NCBI GenBank assembly: GCA_021811185.1
Contig: JAJZPL010000007.1
Span: forward strand, 1-64,000
Direction of reading: 5' to 3'
DNA from: a bacterium
GTDB lineage: Bacteria > Elusimicrobiota > Elusimicrobia > Elusimicrobiales > UBA9959
DNA: 64,000 nucleotides
Numbering within the stretch: position 1 is the first letter of the stretch; each line of letters begins with the position of its first letter. Position numbers and translations under genes: made by a program. Of the stretch, positions 1,326 through 9,943 are shown piece after piece. The notes under the pieces are model-generated. The model made no database searches and was not told the DNA's origin. It saw nothing but the letters and a program-made list of their open reading frames with translations.

Positions 1326-2690
1326 ATGTCCGAAGCCCCCAACCATCCCGCAGCGTACCGCCGCCGCCGTTTCATGAACTGGTTCCCGCTGGGCCTCACC
1401 TACGCCACTTTCTACATGGGCCGCTACAACCTGAACGTGGCGTCCAAGACCATGATGGACATGTTCCACCTGAACAAGGCGGAATTCGGCACCATCGCCA
1501 CGGCTGGCTTCTGGACCTACGCGCTGTCGGTAATGTTCAACGGCCCCTTGGCTGACCGCATCGGCGGCAAGAAGGCCATCCTGATAGGCGCGGTCGGCGC
1601 CGCCGTCCTGAACCTGGTGATCGGCCTGCTGTTCCTGGGCGGCTGGCAGACCAAGATAATCGTGGGCATGTCGCTCCTGTACGCGGTGAACCAGTACTTC
1701 CAATCCTTCGGCGCGCTGTCGGTGGTGAAGGTGAACGCCCCCTGGTTCCACGTCAAGGAACGCGGCGTGTTCGGCGGGATCTTCGGCATCATGATCTCCG
1801 GCGGCTACTTCCTGGCCATGACGGTGGGCGGCTGGATCCTTTCCACGATGAACTGGTACATGGTCTTCCTTATCCCTTCGGCCGCGATGCTGCTGATGTT
1901 CCTGGTGGACCTGTTCCTGGTAAAGGACAAGCCCAGCGAGGCCGGCCACAACGACTTCAATACCGGAGACGCTACCGCCCACGAAAAGGACCACGCGACG
2001 CCGCTTAAGTTCGGCGAGCTGATGAGGCGCGTATTCACGAACCCCGTCATAGTAACGCTGGCCGTTTCGGAATTCTGCACCGGCTTCGTGCGCCAGGGCC
2101 TGCTTTTGTGGTTCGTCCCCTTCCTGGCCGAAGTGCATAAAGTCGTGCACGGCGGCCTGGCCATCTTCGGCGGAAAGGTAACGCTGTTCACCATAGCCAC
2201 CTCGGGCATAACCATAGGCGGCATTGTGGGCGGCCTGATCTGCGGTTATATTTCCGACAAGCTGTTCCAGTCCCGCCGCCCGCCGGTGGCCTTTATCTTC
2301 TACCTCGGCCAGATAATCTCGCTGTTCATCCTCGGCCAGACCGCCAGCCCGGTGGTGGCTTCCTTTATGATAGGCGTCTGCTGCATGTGGATCTTCGGCG
2401 TGCACGGCATGCTCACCGGCACGGCTTCCATGGACTTCGGCGGCACGCGCGCCGCCTCCACCGTGGCGGGCCTGCTCGACGGGGTGCAGTACCTGGCCAG
2501 CGGCCTTACCGGCTTCCTGATGGGGCATTTCCTGGACAAATGGGGCTGGGCTTCCTGGACCTACATGATCATGCCTTTCTCGCTGATCGGCGCGCTGCTG
2601 ATGACCCGCCTGTGGAACGTAACGCCCGGCAGGAAAACTTCGGAACCGCTGGCAGAGGAACACCGGCCGCTGGTGGAAGACGAAGCTTAA
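1326..2690 (+). CDS. MFS organophosphate:phosphate antiporter (OPA family, GlpT/UhpT-like)
   Basis: Inner-membrane major facilitator of 454 residues with about 12 hydrophobic segments. The N-terminal RRRRFMNWFPLGLTYATFYMG followed by RYNLNVASK is the OPA-family hallmark; members such as GlpT, UhpT and UhpC exchange a sugar or glycerol phosphate for inorganic phosphate, or sense it. The loop after TM2 (NGPLADRIGGKK) is the MFS motif A. A charged central cytoplasmic loop (about residues 205-225) separates the two six-helix halves. A TATAAT box at 1286-1291 and an AGGAG ribosome site at 1313-1317 support the start. The exact substrate cannot be told. It is flanked by terminators and so probably stands alone. 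Confidence 0.85.
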   Translation: MSEAPNHPAAYRRRRFMNWFPLGLTYATFYMGRYNLNVASKTMMDMFHLNKAEFGTIATAGFWTYALSVMFNGPLADRIGGKKAILIGAVGAAVLNLVIGLLFLGGWQTKIIVGMSLLYAVNQYFQSFGALSVVKVNAPWFHVKERGVFGGIFGIMISGGYFLAMTVGGWILSTMNWYMVFLIPSAAMLLMFLVDLFLVKDKPSEAGHNDFNTGDATAHEKDHATPLKFGELMRRVFTNPVIVTLAVSEFCTGFVRQGLLLWFVPFLAEVHKVVHGGLAIFGGKVTLFTIATSGITIGGIVGGLICGYISDKLFQSRRPPVAFIFYLGQIISLFILGQTASPVVASFMIGVCCMWIFGVHGMLTGTASMDFGGTRAASTVAGLLDGVQYLASGLTGFLMGHFLDKWGWASWTYMIMPFSLIGALLMTRLWNVTPGRKTSEPLAEEHRPLVEDEA

Positions 2691-2713
2691 AGCCCGCCCG
2701 GAGCGTAAAAAGC

Positions 2714-2743
2714 GAAGAACCGCGGGACAGCCCGCGGTTCTTC
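2714..2743. terminator. Bidirectional terminator between convergent genes
   Basis: A perfect 13-bp stem (2714-2726 with 2731-2743) and ACAG tetraloop lie between the converging MFS gene and the arsenic operon. The T-run is better on the minus strand (complement of AAAAA at 2706-2710), so it most clearly ends the arsenic operon. Confidence 0.85.
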
Positions 2744-2760
2744 TATGCCCAGGCGGCCGT

Positions 2761-3672
2761 TTAAGGCATGTAGGGTTCGTTCAGCTGCCGCATCTGCCAC
2801 CCTTCCGGGAGCAGGTCGTACACCGACTTCCCCGCGGCCAGGATAGTTTCCTGCAAGGCCCGGTACGGGGCCTCCGAAACGGGGCTGAAGCCGGTGATAT
2901 CCGCCACGGCGGAGAGGGCCTTCCTGCCCTCGGGCGTGCCGGGCAGGGCGGCCAGCGCGGCCTCTATAGCCTGCCGTTTTTCCGGCAGCAGGCTGCGGCG
3001 CACTACTACGGGTTCGTTGGGCACGGTGCCGGTAACGGCCAGCACGCGCAGCTCCGGGCGGCCTTTGGCGGCGTCGGCGTAGGTGGCGGCGGCGTCCGCG
3101 CTGCCGTCGAGCAGGGCGGCCAGGGCGGCTTTATGGCTGCCGGCAAAGACCGGCGTCACTTTCACGCCGGCTTTTTTGAGGAAGACGGAAGGCAGGAAAT
3201 ACCCGCTTATGGAGTAAGGGTCGGAAAAAGCGAATTTCTTCCCGGCCAGGCCCGCGGCGTCCTTAGGCCCCCCGGCCGCTTTGACGAGGATGACGCCGTC
3301 GTACTTGGTCTCCGCCCCGCGGCGGTTAACCTGCAGGGCGGCCTGCACGCGGTACTGCTCGCGGGCCACCAGGTATTCCTCGGTGGTCATAAAAGCCACG
3401 TCGGCCTTGTCCGAGCCCAGCATATCGATGATGTCCAGCGAGGAGGCGGCCGTCTTCAGCTCCACCGTCATGCCGGTCCGCGCGCTCAGGTAATTCTTTA
3501 AAAATACGAGCGGCTCGCGCGTGCCCGCGGGCGCGTGCTCCGGCGACAAAGCCACCACCAGGGGATTCCCTGGGGTTCCGACCGTAGCCTCTTTCCTGTT
3601 GGCGCAGCCGGCCAGAACCAGCGCGGAAACCACACTAACGGCCGCAATACCGCCTATAAATATTTTTTTCAT
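2761..3672 (-). CDS. PhnD-like substrate-binding lipoprotein of the arsenic operon
   Basis: A 303-residue periplasmic binding protein of the phosphate/phosphite/phosphonate (PhnD) family. The N-terminus is a lipoprotein signal with lipobox ALVLAGC, so it is membrane-tethered. Family motifs visible are DPYSISGYFLPSVFLKKAG and GSHKAALAALLDGSADAAAT. I chose the start at 3672, which has a GGGGAA ribosome site; the longer open frame reaching 4233 runs backwards into acr3. It is the last gene of the arsR-IscA-arsC-acr3 operon and has no permease or ATPase beside it, so it may be a sensor or scavenger rather than part of an importer. The mature chain has no cysteine beyond the lipid anchor, unlike the arsenite sensor AioX, so an oxyanion ligand (arsenate, phosphate, phosphonate) is likelier than thiol-bound arsenite. 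That is inference. Confidence 0.82.
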   Translation of the reverse strand: MKKIFIGGIAAVSVVSALVLAGCANRKEATVGTPGNPLVVALSPEHAPAGTREPLVFLKNYLSARTGMTVELKTAASSLDIIDMLGSDKADVAFMTTEEYLVAREQYRVQAALQVNRRGAETKYDGVILVKAAGGPKDAAGLAGKKFAFSDPYSISGYFLPSVFLKKAGVKVTPVFAGSHKAALAALLDGSADAAATYADAAKGRPELRVLAVTGTVPNEPVVVRRSLLPEKRQAIEAALAALPGTPEGRKALSAVADITGFSPVSEAPYRALQETILAAGKSVYDLLPEGWQMRQLNEPYMP

Positions 3673-3734: not shown

Positions 3735-4805
3735 TCACGCCCCGGCGGGCGCGGCGCAGAACCAATGGCGCGTGCCGTTGCAGAACTTTACCACGCTGAG
3801 CATTACCGGCACCTCCACCAGCACCCCCACCACGCAGGCCAGGGCTGCCCCGGAATCCGGCCCGAAAATGGCTATGGCGGTGGCCACGGCCAGTTCGAAG
3901 AAGTTGCTGGCGCCTATCAGGGCGCCCGGCGCGGCCACACAATACTCCACCTTGAACTTCCTCATAAGGAAGTAAACCAGGCCCGCGTTGAAATAGACCT
4001 GCAGCGTGATGGGCACGGCTATCAGCAGCACGTGGGTGAAGCGCGAGGTAATGTTCTCCGCCTGGAAGGCGAAAATGAAGACCAGCGTGGCCAGCAGCGC
4101 CAGCACGCTCACCGGGTGGAACTTCGGCAGGAATGAATTCTCGAACCAGTCCCGCCCGTGCGCCTTGACCAGGGCCGAGCGCGTGAAAGCCCCGGCGGAA
4201 AGCGGGATGACTATAAAGATGAACACCGCCCACAGCAGCACGGAGAACGGGATGACCAGCGACGAGGCCCCGCCGACCAGGAATTTAACTATAGGCGCGA
4301 AGGCGGCCAGCATGATCAGGTCGTTCACCGCCACCTGCACCAGCGTGTAGGCCGGGTCGCCTTCGGTAAGGTAGCTCCAGACGAAGACCATGGCCGTGCA
4401 CGGCGCCGCGGCCAGGATGATGACCCCGGCGATATACTGCTCCGCCAGCTCCGGCCCGATCCAGGGTGTGAAAATGTGCTTGAAAAAGACCCAGCCCAGC
4501 AGCGCCATGGAGAAGGGCTTTACCAGCCAGTTCACGAAAAGCGTGATCAGCAGGCCCCTGGGCTTCCTTCCGACGTTGGCCAGCGAGCCGAAGTCGATCT
4601 TCAGCATCATCGGGTAGATCATCAGCCAGAGCAGCACGGCTATAGGGATATTGATGTGGGAAGCGGCGCCGAATTCCATGCCCCGCAGCCAGGTGACCAG
4701 GCCCGGGAAGGTTTTCCCGGCCAGCACGCCTATGCCCATACAGGCCGCCACCCAGACGGTAAGGTAGCGCTCGAAAATATTCATCTTTTTAGACGTATCG
4801 CTCAT
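3735..4805 (-). CDS. acr3: ACR3-family arsenite efflux transporter
   Basis: A 356-residue inner-membrane carrier with about ten hydrophobic helices that exports arsenite (or antimonite). Diagnostic ACR3 segments are visible: LAAAPCTAMVFVWSYLT with the conserved cysteine, the NDLIML helix, and IGASNFFELAVATAIAIFGP near the C-terminus. It overlaps arsC by four bases (ATGA), so the two are translationally coupled: ArsC makes arsenite and Acr3 removes it. The C-terminal tail adds two extra cysteines (FCNGTRHWFC), which are not typical and may be incidental. Confidence 0.95.
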   Translation of the reverse strand: MSDTSKKMNIFERYLTVWVAACMGIGVLAGKTFPGLVTWLRGMEFGAASHINIPIAVLLWLMIYPMMLKIDFGSLANVGRKPRGLLITLFVNWLVKPFSMALLGWVFFKHIFTPWIGPELAEQYIAGVIILAAAPCTAMVFVWSYLTEGDPAYTLVQVAVNDLIMLAAFAPIVKFLVGGASSLVIPFSVLLWAVFIFIVIPLSAGAFTRSALVKAHGRDWFENSFLPKFHPVSVLALLATLVFIFAFQAENITSRFTHVLLIAVPITLQVYFNAGLVYFLMRKFKVEYCVAAPGALIGASNFFELAVATAIAIFGPDSGAALACVVGVLVEVPVMLSVVKFCNGTRHWFCAAPAGA

Positions 4806-5230
4806 AGCCGCTCCAGGATCTCCGGCAGTTCTTTTACAAATCGCTTTATCTCGTCGCGGACCCGGCGATAGTGAGGCATGGCGGTTTCGTCCGGTGCGCC
4901 GGGCCCGGAGAGCGTGCCGGGATCGTCGAAACCGCGGTGCAGTTTACGGCCCGCGCCCCAGTAGACGGGGCAGGTCTCGCGGGCATTATCACAGACCGTC
5001 ACCACAAGGTCGAAAGCCTGGTCTTTATATATTTCAAGGGATTTGGGCTTTTGGCCGGAGATGTCCACGCCCGCCTCGGCCATGGCTTTTACCGCGCGCG
5101 GGTCGACTATATCTCCAGGCCGCGTGCCGGCCGAGAAGGCTTCCGCCTTCCCGGCCAGCAGCGCCCTGGCCCAGCCTTCGGCCATCTGGCTGCGGCAGGA
5201 ATTGCCGGTGCAGAGGAAAAGGACTTTCAT
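4802..5230 (-). CDS. arsC: Arsenate reductase, thioredoxin-coupled LMW-phosphatase type
   Basis: Cytoplasmic 142-residue arsenate reductase that converts arsenate to arsenite. The phosphatase-like loop CTGNSCRS (Cys7 to Arg13, CX5R) and the redox pair Cys80 and Cys87 (VCDNARETC) match the Staphylococcus aureus pI258-type enzyme (Cys10, Cys82, Cys89), which is recycled by thioredoxin. The later DDP motif (FDDPG) is also present. Length is normal for the family. It lies between the IscA-like gene and acr3 in the ArsR-controlled operon. Confidence 0.95.
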   Translation of the reverse strand: MKVLFLCTGNSCRSQMAEGWARALLAGKAEAFSAGTRPGDIVDPRAVKAMAEAGVDISGQKPKSLEIYKDQAFDLVVTVCDNARETCPVYWGAGRKLHRGFDDPGTLSGPGAPDETAMPHYRRVRDEIKRFVKELPEILERL

Positions 5231-5242
5231 ACAGGCCCGGGT

Positions 5243-5578
5243 TTAATGCCCGCAGCCGCAATCGCCGCCGCTGCCGCAGTCGCCGCCGCCGCAGCTGTCG
5301 CCGCAGCCGTGGCTGGGCAGACCTTTCAGGATTATGCCGCCAGCGGCGTCGCAGTCGATAGTGGCTTTCTCGAGCTGGGGCGCAGCGTCCTTGTGCACGT
5401 ACAGTTTGAAATCGTTCTTAACGATCTCGGCGTCGTCCTTGTCCGGCTTGGGCGCCAGGTCCATGGCCAGCGAGGGGCCGCAGCAGCCCTCGGTCGTAAA
5501 AATGCGCAGGCAGGAGCCTTTCCCTTCTTCTTTGATCACTTTCTTAAGCGTCTCTATCGCGGCGTCGGTAATTTCCAT
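5243..5578 (-). CDS. IscA/HesB-like protein with cysteine-rich tail, in the arsenic operon
   Basis: A 111-residue protein whose first ~90 residues match the IscA/HesB iron-sulfur or metal-binding fold (MEITDAAIETLKKVI start, GSCLRIFTTEGCCGPS core, LYVHKDAAPQLEKATID). The C-terminal 20 residues are almost only glycine, cysteine and aspartate (GCGDSCGGGDC ... CGCGH), giving at least six extra thiols. The start at 5578 has a good GGAGGAA ribosome site; the longer open frame starting at 5641 runs into arsR. It lies between arsR and arsC, so its role is presumably linked to arsenic: repair of damaged iron-sulfur centres, or thiol buffering of arsenite by the tail. No in-frame TGA is needed, so it is not a selenoprotein form. 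Confidence 0.75.
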   Translation of the reverse strand: MEITDAAIETLKKVIKEEGKGSCLRIFTTEGCCGPSLAMDLAPKPDKDDAEIVKNDFKLYVHKDAAPQLEKATIDCDAAGGIILKGLPSHGCGDSCGGGDCGSGGDCGCGH

Positions 5579-5634: not shown

Positions 5635-6009
5635 CTAGCACTTGCAGCCTATCACGCAGACGCCTTTCTCGCGGCGCGCCAGCCTTTCCTTAAGGCGGGC
5701 CAGATCTTTGGCTATCAGCCCGCAGCACGGCGCCGGCCTGACCAGTTTCATAAGATACGCGTTGAGCGGTCCGCGCTCCGCCAGCGTGTACATGGCCCAA
5801 CGGCCTCTCCTCTCTTTCCTTATGATCCCGGCCGCGCAGAGGGCGCCCAGGTAGCGAGAAACGTTATACTGGCTTTCCCCAAGCGCGTCCACCAGTTCGC
5901 ATACGCACAGTTCGCGCCCCGCCCGCGCCAGCAGCGCGGCCGTCCGCAGGCGGTTGCCGTCCCCCAGCGCCTTCAGCGCCTTAAGGCAGGTTTTAAAATC
6001 ATTCCTCAT
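5635..6009 (-). CDS. arsR: ArsR/SmtB-family metalloid-responsive repressor
   Basis: A 124-residue winged-helix repressor. The metal-site sequence ELCVCELVDAL (Cys35, Cys37) sits at the start of the DNA-recognition helix as in classic ArsR, and extra cysteines follow: a CC pair at 95-96 and CVIGCKC at the C-terminus, suggesting more than one thiol site. The start at 6009 (MRNDF) is chosen because the promoter predicts a transcript beginning near 6031, so the upstream in-frame ATG at 6048 lies inside the promoter. It heads the arsenic operon and is divergent from hgcA; it probably represses its own operon through the inverted repeat over the -10 and may also affect hgcAB. Confidence 0.9.
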   Translation of the reverse strand: MRNDFKTCLKALKALGDGNRLRTAALLARAGRELCVCELVDALGESQYNVSRYLGALCAAGIIRKERRGRWAMYTLAERGPLNAYLMKLVRPAPCCGLIAKDLARLKERLARREKGVCVIGCKC

Positions 6010-6029
6010 AGCAGAAGATATGCCGCTCT

Positions 6030-6051
6030 CATATGCTATTATATGCATATG
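6030..6051. promoter_or_regulatory. Inverted repeat over the arsR -10: candidate ArsR operator
   Basis: CATATGC (6030-6036) and GCATATG (6045-6051) form a perfect 7-bp inverted repeat with an 8-bp centre. It covers the TATAAT of the arsR promoter, the usual place for an ArsR/SmtB repressor to bind. Confidence 0.7.
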
Positions 6052-6067
6052 GCAGGCGGCTTGTCAA
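6038..6067 (-). promoter_or_regulatory. Consensus sigma-70 type promoter of the arsenic operon
   Basis: TTGACA (complement at 6062-6067), an 18-bp spacer and TATAAT (complement at 6038-6043). Transcription should begin near 6031, giving a leader of about 22 nt before arsR. Confidence 0.8.
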
Positions 6068-6100
6068 GATACGGGCGCAGCCGGCCGCCGCAACTTGAGG

Positions 6101-6106
6101 TAGAAT
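6101..6106 (+). promoter_or_regulatory. -10-like TAGAAT box just before hgcA (possible leaderless start)
   Basis: TAGAAT ends 7 nt before the hgcA ATG, the same geometry as other probable leaderless genes in this window. No convincing -35 is seen. A weak GAGG at 6097-6100 could instead act as a ribosome site. Confidence 0.45.
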
Positions 6107-6113
6107 ACCAACT

Positions 6114-7109
6114 ATGCCGCAACACGTCCAGAAAATAATTATACTGCCGGCGAGAAAGAGCGCGCCGGCCGGCGGCCCCGAAAGGGCCAGCGCGGACTAC
6201 ACGGCCGCCGACCGCCTGGCCGCCTGGAAAGCCCGCTGGGGAATCAACAGGATGGCGTACCGGGTAAACCCAGGGCTCTATGCCCTTGGCTCGCCCGGGA
6301 GCGAGTCGCCGGTTTTCGCCACCGCTAACTACAAGCTCAGCTTTGACGCCCTCAGAAGGAACCTTAAAGGCGTAAACGCCTGGCTCCTTGTCCTGGACAC
6401 CAAAGGCATAAACGTCTGGTGCGCGGCGGGCAAAGGCGCCTTCGGCACGCTGGAGCTTACGCGCTCTATCAGGGAAACGGGGCTGGAAGAGCTGGTCAGC
6501 CGCCGGGACATCGTTCTCCCCCAGCTGGGCGCGCCGGGCGTAAGCGCCCACAAGGTAAAAGCTTATACCGGCTTCTCCGTGGTCTACGGGCCGGTACGCG
6601 CCGAGGACCTGCCAGAATACCTGCGGCTGGGCGGCAAAGCTACCCCCGGAATGCGCAGGGTGCGGTTCAATTTTTTAGACAGAATGATCTTAGCGCCGGT
6701 GCAGCTGGTTTATTACGGTAAATACTTCCTCCCGGTCTCCCTTCTGTTGTACTTCTTCGGGTTTAAGACCGACGCGGCTTTAACGGCGGGAGCCCTGCTT
6801 GCGGGAACCGTCCTGGTGCCCGCCCTGCTGCCCTGGCTGCCCGGCAGAAGCTTCGCCGTAAAAAGCGCGGCGGCCGGGCTGCTGGTGGCGGCGCTGGTTT
6901 CCTATGCCGGCGGCCTCGCTCTCTACCAGTTCGGCGCCCGGGCTCTAATCTACGCGGCGGCGGCCTCCTACCTCGGCCTGGACTTCACCGGCGCGTCCAC
7001 CTACACCTCTTTGTCCGGCGTTAAGAAAGAAATGCGCCTGGCTATGCCGGCGCAGGCGCTCGCCGCGCTGGCGGGGCTGCTCATGCTGCTCGTTAAGAGG
7101 TATCTATGA
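6114..7109 (+). CDS. hgcA: HgcA, corrinoid methyltransferase of mercury methylation
   Basis: A 331-residue membrane corrinoid protein that transfers a methyl group to Hg(II), working with HgcB. The diagnostic cap-helix motif NVWCAAGK is at residues 100-107, with Cys103 the lower-axial cobalt ligand of the family. Other HgcA landmarks are LVLDTKGI before it and VLPQLGAPGVSAH after it. The soluble corrinoid domain ends near residue 180; the C-terminal half carries about five hydrophobic helices (roughly 190-330), the membrane domain expected of HgcA. The stop overlaps the hgcB start (ATGA), so the pair is coupled. It is divergent from arsR across about 105 bp. All key residues are intact, so I expect a functional protein. 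Confidence 0.96.
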   Translation: MPQHVQKIIILPARKSAPAGGPERASADYTAADRLAAWKARWGINRMAYRVNPGLYALGSPGSESPVFATANYKLSFDALRRNLKGVNAWLLVLDTKGINVWCAAGKGAFGTLELTRSIRETGLEELVSRRDIVLPQLGAPGVSAHKVKAYTGFSVVYGPVRAEDLPEYLRLGGKATPGMRRVRFNFLDRMILAPVQLVYYGKYFLPVSLLLYFFGFKTDAALTAGALLAGTVLVPALLPWLPGRSFAVKSAAAGLLVAALVSYAGGLALYQFGARALIYAAAASYLGLDFTGASTYTSLSGVKKEMRLAMPAQALAALAGLLMLLVKRYL

Positions 7110-7399
7110 CCATGAAATATCTGCGCGGCGTGGCAACGCTGAAGCTGGACGCCGCCAAGTGCAGAGGCTGCGGCATGTGCCTTAACGTCTGCCCGCACGC
7201 CGTGTTCAGGCTTGAAGGCCGCAAAGCCGCCATCGCCGACGCGGACCTCTGCATGGAATGCGGCGCCTGCGCCGCCAACTGCCCGGCGGAAGCGGTCTCC
7301 GTAAAAAAAGGCGTGGGCTGCGCGCAGGCCGTACGGATGGGGTTCCTTAAAGGCACCGAACCGGACTGCGGCTGCGGCGACGATTCTTCCTGCTGCTGA
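7106..7399 (+). CDS. hgcB: HgcB, 2[4Fe-4S] ferredoxin of mercury methylation
   Basis: A 97-residue ferredoxin that reduces the HgcA corrinoid and is thought to hand over Hg(II). Two CX2CX2CX3CP clusters are intact: CRGCGMCLNVCP (Cys19, 22, 25, 29) and CMECGACAANCP (Cys49, 52, 55, 59). The family's extra conserved cysteine is present as Cys72 (KGVGC), and the chain ends in the HgcB-typical CC pair (Cys96-Cys97), with two more cysteines at 88 and 90. An AGAGG ribosome site precedes the start, which overlaps the hgcA stop. With hgcA this gives a complete methylation gene pair. Confidence 0.96.
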   Translation: MTMKYLRGVATLKLDAAKCRGCGMCLNVCPHAVFRLEGRKAAIADADLCMECGACAANCPAEAVSVKKGVGCAQAVRMGFLKGTEPDCGCGDDSSCC

Positions 7400-7460: not shown

Positions 7461-7488
7461 TTGCTTTCCCCCCGCCCTTTTGTAGAAT
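7461..7488 (+). promoter_or_regulatory. Promoter of the P-type ATPase gene
   Basis: TTGCTT (7461-7466), a 16-bp spacer and TAGAAT (7483-7488). Initiation near 7495 would exclude the upstream ATG at 7487 and leave a short leader with the AAAGGGAA ribosome site before 7526. Confidence 0.55.
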
Positions 7489-7525
7489 GAAGAAAACGCA
7501 GCCGCTTTCGGTAAAGGGAACGCAT

Positions 7526-9943
7526 ATGGACGTTAAAATACGCAACACGGCCGAGTACGCTAAAATTTCAATAGAAGAAACCTTCACGCTGCTGGGCAGC
7601 GGCCCGGAGGGCCTCTCCGGCGCCGAAGCCGCCGGCCGCCTGGCCCGGTACGGCTACAACGAGCTCACCGAAAAAAGCGAGAACCTGCTGCTGAAGTTCC
7701 TGGGCCGTTACTGGGGGCCCATGCCCTGGCTGCTGGAACTGGCCATGGCGCTCTCGTTCTTCCTCAAGCACGACCTGGAAGCGTGGCTGATCTTCGCGCT
7801 GCTCACCGTTAACGCGGTGATAGGCCAGGCGCACGAGCGCAGTTCCCGGGCGGCCATAAACCTGCTGAAGAAGAAACTGGCGATAAACGCAAGGCTCCTG
7901 CGCGACGGCGTCTGGACGCTGAAACCGTCCCGGGAAGTGGCGCCAGGCGACGTGCTCTCGGTGAAACTGGGCGACATCGTACCCGCCGACGCAAAACTCC
8001 TTAGCGGCGGCCTCACCGCCGACGTCTCGGCGCTTACCGGCGAATCCCTGCCCTCGGAACTCAAGCCCGGCGATATCGCCTATTCCGGCTCCGTAGTGAA
8101 GGCCGGCGAGGCGCGCTGCGCTGCGGTCAACACCGGGGCCGGCACCTATTTCGGCCGCACGGCGGAACTGGTCAAGACGGCCGCCCCCGCTTCCCACCAG
8201 ACGGAAGTGATGATGGCCGTGGTGCGCTACATGATGTACCTGGGCCTGGCCGCCTCGGCGCTGGTCGCAGGCTACGCCCTGTTCACCCACGCGGCGCTGC
8301 CGGTGATACTCACCTTCGTGGTGATCTTCCTGATGGGCGCGGTGCCGGTGGCCCTGCCCGCCGTGCTCACCATAGTGCAGGCGGTGGGCGCCCTGGAGCT
8401 TTCCCGCCAGGGGGCGCTGGTGACCCGGCTGGATTCCATAGAGGACGCGGCCTCCATAGATCTTATCTGCTTCGACAAGACCGGCACCATAACGCAGAAC
8501 AAGCTGGCCGTGGCGGACAGCGCGCCTTTTAACGGCTACACCAAAGAGCAGGTGGCGGCGCTGGGCGCTATGGCCTGCCGCGAAGAGAACCTGGACGTGA
8601 TAGACCTGGCGGTGCTGGACTACGCCCGCGGCCTGGGCTCCGCCCTGGACGGCTACAAGCAGCTCTCGTTCACGCCTTTTACTACGGCGGCGAAAAGGAC
8701 CGAAGCCGAAGCGCAGGACAAGAACGGGCGTTTCCGCGTGGTAAAGGGCGCGCCGCAGGTGGTGCTGGCCCTGTGCCCCGGCACCGCCCCCGGCGTGGCC
8801 GCGGCCGCCGCCGCGGCGGTGGAGGGCTTCGCCGCCAAGGGCTACCGCACGCTCGCGGTAGCCAGGACCGACGGCGCGGGCGGAGAGCTGCGCCTGGCCG
8901 GCTTCCTGCCGCTGTCGGACCCGCTCAGGCCTGACTCCAAAGCCATGATAGCCGAGGCGCGCCGGCTGGGCATAAGACCCATGATGCTGACCGGCGACAG
9001 CCTGCTGATAGCGCGCGAGATAGCGCGGCAGGCCGGCATCCCGGGCGAGATCAGGCGCCTGCCCGAGTTCGAGGCGCTGCCCGCCGCCGAACAGGCGCGG
9101 CTCGCCGGCGAGCTCGGCGGCTTCGCCGAGATCTACCCGGAGGACAAGTACAAGATAGTAAAACTTTTCCAGGCGCGCGGGCATATGGTGGGTATGACCG
9201 GCGACGGGGTGAACGACGCGCCGGCGCTGAAGCAGGCGGAGCTGGGCATAGCTGTAAGCAGCGCGGCCGACGTGGCCAAGGCGGCCGCCAGCGTGGTACT
9301 GACCGAGCCCGGCCTGGGCGTGATCGTAGACGCGGTTAAGATAAGCCGCCGCACCTACCAGCGCATGCTGAGCTGGGTCATCAACAAGGTCACCAAGGTG
9401 ATAGAATTCGTAGGGCTGCTGACCGTGGCCTTCTTCTGGCTGCACGGCGTGGTGCTTTCGCTGCTGGGCATGGCGCTTTTGGTGTTCGCCAACGACTTCG
9501 TTACCATGTCGCTGGCCACGGACAACGCGGATTACACCGGCAGCCCCAACAAGTGGAACGTAAAGGACATCACGCTGTCCGCGCTGGCGCCGGGGCTGCT
9601 GCTGGTGGTAGAGGGCCTGCTGGTGCTCCTCGCCGGGAAAACCCTGTTCCGGCTGGACTGGGAGCCGCTGCGCGCGCTGGTGCTGCTCAACCTCATCTTC
9701 AATAGCCAGTTCCGGGTGCTGATAGTGCGGGAGCGGCGGCATTTCTGGGCGTCCCTCCCTGGCCGCGACCTGGCCGTGCTGAGCGGCGCCACCATAGCAG
9801 CCTTCGTGCTCCTGGGGATGAGCGGCCTCTTCATGCCGGCCCTGCCGCTCTACCAGGTGCTCGCTGTGCTGGGCTTCTCCCTGGTCTTCACCCTGGCCAT
9901 AGATTTTCCCAAGGTCTGGATGTTCAGGAAGTTCGGGCTTTAA
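7526..9943 (+). CDS. P3A-type plasma-membrane H+-ATPase-like P-type ATPase
   Basis: An 805-residue ion-pumping P-type ATPase. Visible hallmarks: the TGES loop (ALTGESLPSE), PVALP in TM4 (the P3A-type site; heavy-metal P1B pumps have CPC here and N-terminal metal domains, both absent), the phosphorylated aspartate in FDKTGTIT (about residue 317), KGAPQ in the nucleotide domain and GDGVNDAPALKQAELGIAV near 560. The N-terminus resembles the cation ATPase N domain (LSGAEAAGRLARYGYNEL). Length and motifs fit plasma-membrane proton ATPases, so it likely builds or uses a proton gradient. I chose the 7526 start on its AAAGGG ribosome site and the promoter position. A direct link to hgcAB just upstream is unproven. 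Confidence 0.88.
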   Translation: MDVKIRNTAEYAKISIEETFTLLGSGPEGLSGAEAAGRLARYGYNELTEKSENLLLKFLGRYWGPMPWLLELAMALSFFLKHDLEAWLIFALLTVNAVIGQAHERSSRAAINLLKKKLAINARLLRDGVWTLKPSREVAPGDVLSVKLGDIVPADAKLLSGGLTADVSALTGESLPSELKPGDIAYSGSVVKAGEARCAAVNTGAGTYFGRTAELVKTAAPASHQTEVMMAVVRYMMYLGLAASALVAGYALFTHAALPVILTFVVIFLMGAVPVALPAVLTIVQAVGALELSRQGALVTRLDSIEDAASIDLICFDKTGTITQNKLAVADSAPFNGYTKEQVAALGAMACREENLDVIDLAVLDYARGLGSALDGYKQLSFTPFTTAAKRTEAEAQDKNGRFRVVKGAPQVVLALCPGTAPGVAAAAAAAVEGFAAKGYRTLAVARTDGAGGELRLAGFLPLSDPLRPDSKAMIAEARRLGIRPMMLTGDSLLIAREIARQAGIPGEIRRLPEFEALPAAEQARLAGELGGFAEIYPEDKYKIVKLFQARGHMVGMTGDGVNDAPALKQAELGIAVSSAADVAKAAASVVLTEPGLGVIVDAVKISRRTYQRMLSWVINKVTKVIEFVGLLTVAFFWLHGVVLSLLGMALLVFANDFVTMSLATDNADYTGSPNKWNVKDITLSALAPGLLLVVEGLLVLLAGKTLFRLDWEPLRALVLLNLIFNSQFRVLIVRERRHFWASLPGRDLAVLSGATIAAFVLLGMSGLFMPALPLYQVLAVLGFSLVFTLAIDFPKVWMFRKFGL

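Follow-up and report, generated by a model that had tools for sequence, protein, structure and literature searches.

A divergent hgcAB/ars locus in a family of Elusimicrobiota, with a predicted shared promoter inside a putative ArsR operator

Introduction

Arsenic genes have been described before as neighbors of the mercury-methylation genes hgcAB. In several lineages, acr3, arsC, arsR, and arsM flank hgcAB (McDaniel et al. 2020, PMC7438021, seen in part). According to the portions of PMC10349881 available to us, arsR occurs within three ORFs upstream of hgcA in 14 of 31 confirmed methylators, hgcAB of P. mercurii ND132 are under ArsR/arsenic control (Gionfriddo 2023, as described there), and none of that study's own 35 contigs carries arsR. 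The accessible text of PMC12953829 likewise reports that arsR genes were not near hgcAB in its MAGs.

The locus described here resembles those of Desulfovibrio and Pseudodesulfovibrio, including ND132 (Goni-Urriza 2020 and Gionfriddo 2023, via partial texts of PMC7438021 and PMC10349881), in having an ArsR-family regulator next to hgcAB and a proposed arsenic-linked control. In those organisms, as far as these texts describe them, arsR lies upstream on the same strand and is co-transcribed, whereas here arsR is divergent and heads a complete ars operon, and the operator holds overlapping predicted -10 elements for both directions. Like the loci of McDaniel et al., it has arsenic genes immediately beside hgcAB; the text that we saw of that paper describes no divergent Elusimicrobiota operon, operator, or promoter. 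Bidirectional promoters such as that of acrA/acrR (PMC12825309 and PMC10268837, both seen in part) provide a second precedent, with overlapping -10 elements, reciprocal -11A/-7T, divergent starts whose spacing (7 to 25 bp in the class) is comparable to the ∼18 bp predicted here, and a repressor gene diverging from its target, but the present case involves the ArsR family and methylation genes, and its starts are predicted rather than mapped. The HTH_5 domain, the CVC motif, and a palindrome over the arsR -10 element are all as in ArsR/SmtB repressors of acr3-arsC operons; the difference is that the site is here also the predicted hgcA promoter. The literature searched (subscription papers lay mostly outside it, and several sources were seen in part) yielded no description of arsR diverging from hgcA around a shared promoter embedded in an operator. 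The proximity of ars genes to hgcAB and the ArsR control in ND132 are prior knowledge; the shared-promoter form may be new.

Results

The window (the whole stretch of 64,000 nucleotides that was analyzed) contains the following genes on its plus strand.

6114-7109, plus strand: hgcA, mercury-methylation corrinoid protein (NVWCAAGK with Cys103; NCBIfam model and alignment)
7106-7399, plus strand: hgcB, ferredoxin (NF040864, 121.1 bits, cut-off 99)

The sequence-only reading had called both proteins complete, and its coordinates proved right. The 331-residue HgcA scored 411.6 bits with the NCBIfam HgcA model NF040863 (cut-off 275), the match covering positions 4-323 of the 325 in the profile and thus reaching its C-terminal part, and Cys103 was invariant in an alignment of 14 HgcA proteins from the phylum. 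The sequence NVWCAAGK fits what we take to be the HgcA cap-helix motif, N(V/I)WCA(A/G)GK. The HgcAB-like fusion model gave 203.5 bits, less than its cut-off of 285; the profile scores rule out both a fusion identity and a CdhD-like one, including the placement in the non-methylating CdhD-like clade that the sequence-only reading had named as a refuting case. HgcB (97 residues) possesses two 4Fe-4S CxxCxxCxxxC motifs, Cys72, and a C-terminal CC by hand count, and its gene overlaps hgcA by 4 bp. The pair is a complete predicted mercury-methylation pair as judged from its sequence, and a profile search found a single HgcA match in the genome. To our knowledge, no mercury methylator has been cultured from the phylum Elusimicrobiota. 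A plasma-membrane-type H+ P-type ATPase (TIGR01647) is encoded 3' of hgcB at 7487-9943 on the plus strand, its start likely lying at 7527 because a TAGAAT overlaps the earlier ATG at 7487; no P-type ATPase match was present beside hgcAB in the other loci of the family.

Divergent from hgcA, the minus strand encodes arsR, a HesB/IscA-like protein, an ArsC-like LMWPc protein, Acr3, and a PhnD-like binding protein, in that order.

5635-6009, minus strand: arsR, type I (PF01022 HTH_5; NF033788, 68.8 bits, cut-off 55)
5243-5578 (start inferred), minus strand: small HesB/IscA-like protein, tail rich in Cys and Gly, encoded second in the ars operon (PF01521)
4802-5230, minus strand: ArsC-like LMWPc protein (PF01451)
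3735-4805, minus strand: acr3, arsenite efflux permease (TIGR00832, 371.6 bits, cut-off 282.8)
2761-3672 (start inferred), minus strand: PhnD-like substrate-binding protein, after acr3 (PF12974, TIGR01098)

The most likely arsR start is at 6009 (MRNDFK...), which we prefer over an ATG at 6048 that lies inside the palindrome described below and upstream of the predicted transcript start; with the start at 6009, the control region of ∼105 bp between hgcA and arsR that had been proposed earlier is confirmed. PDB matches of the ArsR included 1u2w (E 5.6e-8), 1r1t SmtB (4e-6), and 6j0e ArsR (1.2e-4) but gave no lead on the arsenic site. As a candidate As(III)-responsive thiol site, the protein has a CVC motif, which is present in 19 of 19 type-I ArsR proteins, and C-terminal cysteines; the E. 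coli motif has a third Cys that is missing here. The second gene of the operon has a similar counterpart in all ten of the other type-I arsR-linked hgcA loci and was also seen near arsR in the hgcA-less loci L093, L096, and L098; its product is possibly an accessory part of this ars operon. The third gene product scored below the equivalog cut-off for a thioredoxin-type ArsC (TIGR02691, 118.6 bits, cut-off 174.3), and it is named only as an ArsC-like LMWPc protein. A gene similar to that of the PhnD-like protein is found 3' of acr3 in several relatives. Together with a PgtP/UhpC-like MFS transporter gene on the plus strand, it adjoins the ars operon at 1326-3672, and the two occur together in L035, L039, L042, and L047. 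Acr3 itself is swapped between loci of the family, with identities to that of the window of 77 to 86% in L033, L035, and L042 and of ∼35% in the remaining family loci with an acr3 gene.

Three elements were identified between the two transcription units.

6030-6051, no strand: putative ArsR operator CATATGC-TATTATAT-GCATATG (inverted repeat CATATGC-N8-GCATATG)
6038-6067, minus strand: predicted arsR promoter TTGACA-18-TATAAT, sigma-70-type (12 of 12 consensus matches)
6034-6042, plus strand: predicted hgcA-ward extended -10 element TGC-TATTAT, overlapping the arsR -10 element and identical at all 12 hgcA loci of type I

A promoter scan returned one TTGACA-18-TATAAT site, compared to a mean of 0.4 in shuffled sequences, and no consensus promoter on the plus strand; a good -35 partner is lacking for the hgcA-ward -10 element. 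The arsR-ward TATAAT and the hgcA-ward TATTAT, the latter preceded by the TGn of an extended -10 element, are predicted to overlap by five base pairs within the palindrome, as TATTATA/TATAATA with reciprocal -11A/-7T in a 20-mer conserved at 12 loci. We propose that hgcAB and the ars genes form one divergent regulon with a shared, nearly symmetrical promoter that ArsR would repress, and arsenite would free, in both directions, a reading to which we assign a probability of about 0.7. ArsR would bind the palindrome, CATAT(AT)GC...GC(AT)ATATG, and when bound would hide both -10 elements and shut polymerase out in both directions; arsenite bound to the ArsR cysteines would release the protein and open both directions. 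The hgcA transcript initiated from TATTAT would have a leader of ∼65 nt, the distance from the end of this element to the hgcA ATG being 71 nt in the window. By eye, L033 and L046 have a small ORF that begins at the operator-edge ATG and is joined to hgcA by an ATGA overlap of stop and start, and a similar small ORF from 6049 in the window runs out of frame into hgcA.

The sequence-only reading had placed the operator beside the hgcA start, and this does not apply to the window, in which the palindrome covers the arsR -10 element and lies 62 bp upstream of the hgcA ATG; the operator edge does coincide with the hgcA ATG in four type-I relatives (L034, L036, L038, and L042). The position of the operator on the arsR promoter, along with the lack of a consensus plus-strand promoter in the scan, would also suit two units that are neighbors only, with the operator serving arsR alone and with the two influencing each other at most through supercoiling or polymerase interference. 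In such an arrangement, hgcA would use the -10-like TAGAAT at 6101-6106, which lies outside the operator, 7 nt before the hgcA ATG, and could be an independent hgcA promoter. None of the other 11 type-I leaders carries this hexamer in its final 22 nt, although a weaker CAGAAT is present in L043, and, given this and the comparisons below, we consider neighborhood without shared control unlikely.

A shared promoter could also act in the opposite sense, such that the induced, strong arsR promoter would win polymerase at the shared -10 region and hgcAB expression would fall as arsenic rises. The arsR side has consensus -35 and -10 elements, and the hgcA side has only an extended -10; competition at bidirectional promoters under activation has been described (PMC12825309, seen in part). 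An arsenic-induced change in hgcAB was reported for ND132, but arsR is co-transcribed upstream there (PMC10349881, seen in part). We regard a fall of hgcAB with arsenic as quite unlikely.

To place the locus among its relatives, as the sequence-only reading had suggested, we surveyed the neighbors of hgcA in 340 genomes of the phylum, counting HgcA over the curated cut-off; 59 of these genomes belong to the family of the window. HgcA was found in 23 of the 340 genomes (24 genes), and the stretches surrounding the 23 other hgcA genes were compared, the window itself serving for its own. Fifteen genomes of the family carry 16 hgcA genes. A putative ArsR operator is located upstream of all 16, and arsR is divergent from hgcA at 15 (11 of type I and four of type II), a frequency that rules out chance neighbors; arsC and acr3 follow at 14 of the 16 loci, with two acr3 genes cut by contig ends. 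The other ten type-I ArsR proteins are 62 to 79% identical to that of the window. The sixteenth locus, L043, is one of two hgcA copies in genome G140 and has no adjacent arsR. Outside the family, none of the eight phylum hgcA loci has the divergent arrangement: ars genes are upstream on the same strand in four (arsR-arsC-acr3-hgcAB in L045, acr3 in L044 and L053, and arsC-acr3 with a gap in L032), and tblastn found none at the other four. Within the genus, a type-I ArsR occurs in nine of 12 genomes with hgcA versus two of 20 without it (p 3.3e-4, ancestry ignored). In L041, a MarR-type regulator lookalike, identified by eye, precedes hgcA on the same strand.

The hgcA ATG follows the -10 element by 6 to 8 nt at eight of the 16 family loci, so that the mRNA may be leaderless there, and by 47 to 71 nt at the other eight. 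In 177 ORFs examined for such starts, -10-like hexamers were slightly enriched 6 to 7 nt before the ATG (10 cases), and some of these may be the hgcA loci; leaderless starts were not clearly common as a general habit of these genomes.

The type-I operator is closely tied to hgcA. The sequence ATATGCTATTATAYGCATAT lies upstream of hgcA in all 12 type-I loci, including the orphan site of L043, and its 20-mer core, which has one variable base (Y), occurs once per genome at these 12 loci and has no other exact copy in the 340 genomes. With W allowed at the variable base and one mismatch, 19 sites were found in 17 of the 340 genomes (none in a reversed control). With up to two mismatches, the 59 family genomes gave 20 sites in 18 genomes (one in the reversed control), of which the 12 exact ones are the 12 type-I hgcA loci; one of the inexact sites, in G147, has no ArsR beside it.

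Close homologues of the type-I ArsR in the family (E up to 1e-12) number 19, of which 11 are linked to hgcA and eight are not, and their operators differ at a single informative base. In the reading direction of arsR, A follows the -10 element at all 11 linked loci and T does so at seven of eight unlinked ones, the eighth (G157) having a different operator core whose hgcA-ward reading also starts with A. Read toward hgcA, the linked loci have TGC-TATTAT, six unlinked loci have AATTAT, and G133 has AATCAT, such that the first base of the hexamer is T at all 11 linked loci and the orphan but A at all eight unlinked arsR-I loci (Fisher p 1.3e-5 for 11 linked versus eight unlinked, ancestry ignored). 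Because the unlinked sites begin with A, the base that completes the hgcA-ward -10 element is confined to hgcA sites, which argues against an operator that serves only arsR. The arsR -10 element forces the hgcA-ward -11A and -7T, and therefore only the -12 base separates linked from unlinked loci; since the -11A/-7T pairing follows from the arsR -10, the unlinked sites may also fire weakly in both directions. The -12 difference is backed by few independent events.

The unlinked arsR-I loci probably have no divergent gene: an ORF of at least 230 residues points toward arsR within 400 nt in six of the eight, only shorter ones (110 and 113 residues) do so in L097 and L099, and ORFs of 60 to 92 residues pointing away from arsR with a start within 100 nt are present in three of the eight (L095, L096, and L097). 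In L098 (G133), a second type-I-like operator with an AATTTT core lies ∼950 bp from the arsR one and precedes another ORF, hinting at a small regulon.

Two further comparisons bear on whether the operator belongs to hgcA. At L043, the type-I operator is retained before hgcA with no adjacent arsR, and no type-I ArsR was detected in G140 at E 1e-12 (this genome is 79% complete), which counts against the shared-regulon reading; the second hgcA copy of G140, L051, is paired with a type-II ArsR. Conservation through arsR alone is insufficient to explain the pattern, given the orphan operator and the base difference. The four type-II loci (L037, L049, L051, and L052) encode an ArsR that is ∼40% identical to that of the window where aligned (only 27 residues, at a contig end, for L052) and share a different operator, TTCGTYATTTCGCCACATARCGAATTATA, followed by S-TATAAT, 6 to 7 nt before the hgcA ATG. 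Searched with up to three mismatches, the TTCGTYATTTCGCCACATARCGAATTATA pattern was found in four of the 59 family genomes, in each case at hgcA (control, 0). A different repressor and a different site at the same spot suggest that what has been kept is ArsR control of hgcA and not one sequence. Like the orphan site, the second operator type speaks against two units that are neighbors only. The earlier proposal that the shared region provides a physical basis for metalloid control thus gains from comparison (the operator at 16 of 16 loci, the hgcA-specific base, the orphan, and the two operator types), and the control itself is still something that we infer.

Trees of ArsR and HgcA were built to allow for the shared ancestry of these genomes. 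The hgcA-linked proteins do not form one clade in the best ArsR tree of 19 rows, which needs four label changes; in a 16-row tree from which the long rows G108, G109, and G155 were dropped, the starred branches force two changes. AU tests did not reject a single clade of hgcA-linked ArsRs at 5% (p 0.066 and 0.059). Within the HgcA tree, the type-II loci occupy separate places, with starred branches forcing three or two changes in two trees, and the AU test for type-II HgcA as one clade gave p 0.058, again not rejected at 5%. For a pair test with the operator base as the trait matched to hgcA linkage, which counts independent pairs only, significance was out of reach. Repeated recruitment of ArsR to hgcA is the better reading of these results, although not a proven one.

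These data also bear on whether an arsenic island was inherited or transferred whole, in which case the layout would reflect common descent and not selection for control of hgcAB. The family HgcA proteins form one clade (100/100), several loci show synteny of the MFS, substrate-binding protein, and ars genes, and the AU tests leave room for a single origin. Operator position and divergence, on the other hand, persist while ArsR type, Acr3 subfamily, and leader length vary, and the leaders are unlike in length and, for the most part, in sequence, whereas the 20-mer varies at one base only. Common descent as the whole explanation is, in our judgment, very improbable.

A wider scan for HgcA returned at least 587 matches, of which the best 80 were examined; six of these were titled Elusimicrobia or Elusimicrobiales and 74 were not, some of the latter being titled only "bacterium". 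The nearest named HgcA records among the matches listed included Elusimicrobiales Ess09-09, HGW-Elusimicrobia-3, and GWC2_61_19. Among the 74, 24 have an ArsR match on the hgcA strand no more than 400 nt upstream (a weak one in L154; for L122, L169, and L177, less than 400 nt upstream was in the stretch examined), any ArsR, Acr3, or ArsC match occurs in the stretch in 39, and a divergent ArsR is present in two, L119 from a Phycisphaerae and L147 from a Syntrophorhabdus with acr3. Divergence is common in the Elusimicrobiota family of the window and rare among these best 80 of at least 587 matches. The sequence-only reading had found an entire ars operon back to back with hgcAB less familiar; ars genes flanking hgcAB were already published (PMC7438021, seen in part), and what holds is that their divergence is unusual (15 of 16 family loci versus two of 74 elsewhere among the best 80).

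Discussion

The comparisons are consistent with hgcAB and the ars operon sharing an ArsR-repressed promoter, and arsenic may control the methylmercury genes in this family of Elusimicrobiota, with a possible effect on methylmercury itself. A bolder proposal, which we consider possible but doubtful, is that hgcAB are full members of the arsenic regulon, served by at least two ArsR/operator types, with selection having fused the hgcA core promoter into the operator. Arsenite, and not mercury, would then be the natural signal, and the native task of HgcAB would lie in arsenic or thiol-metal stress.

For the mercury cycle, it matters why bacteria retain hgcAB and what switches these genes on. The element described here, of ∼26 bp, would allow control of methylmercury genes by an arsenic sensor to be tested directly. 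If the shared-promoter reading is true, arsenic in sediment and groundwater could help to predict when these hgcAB genes are on.
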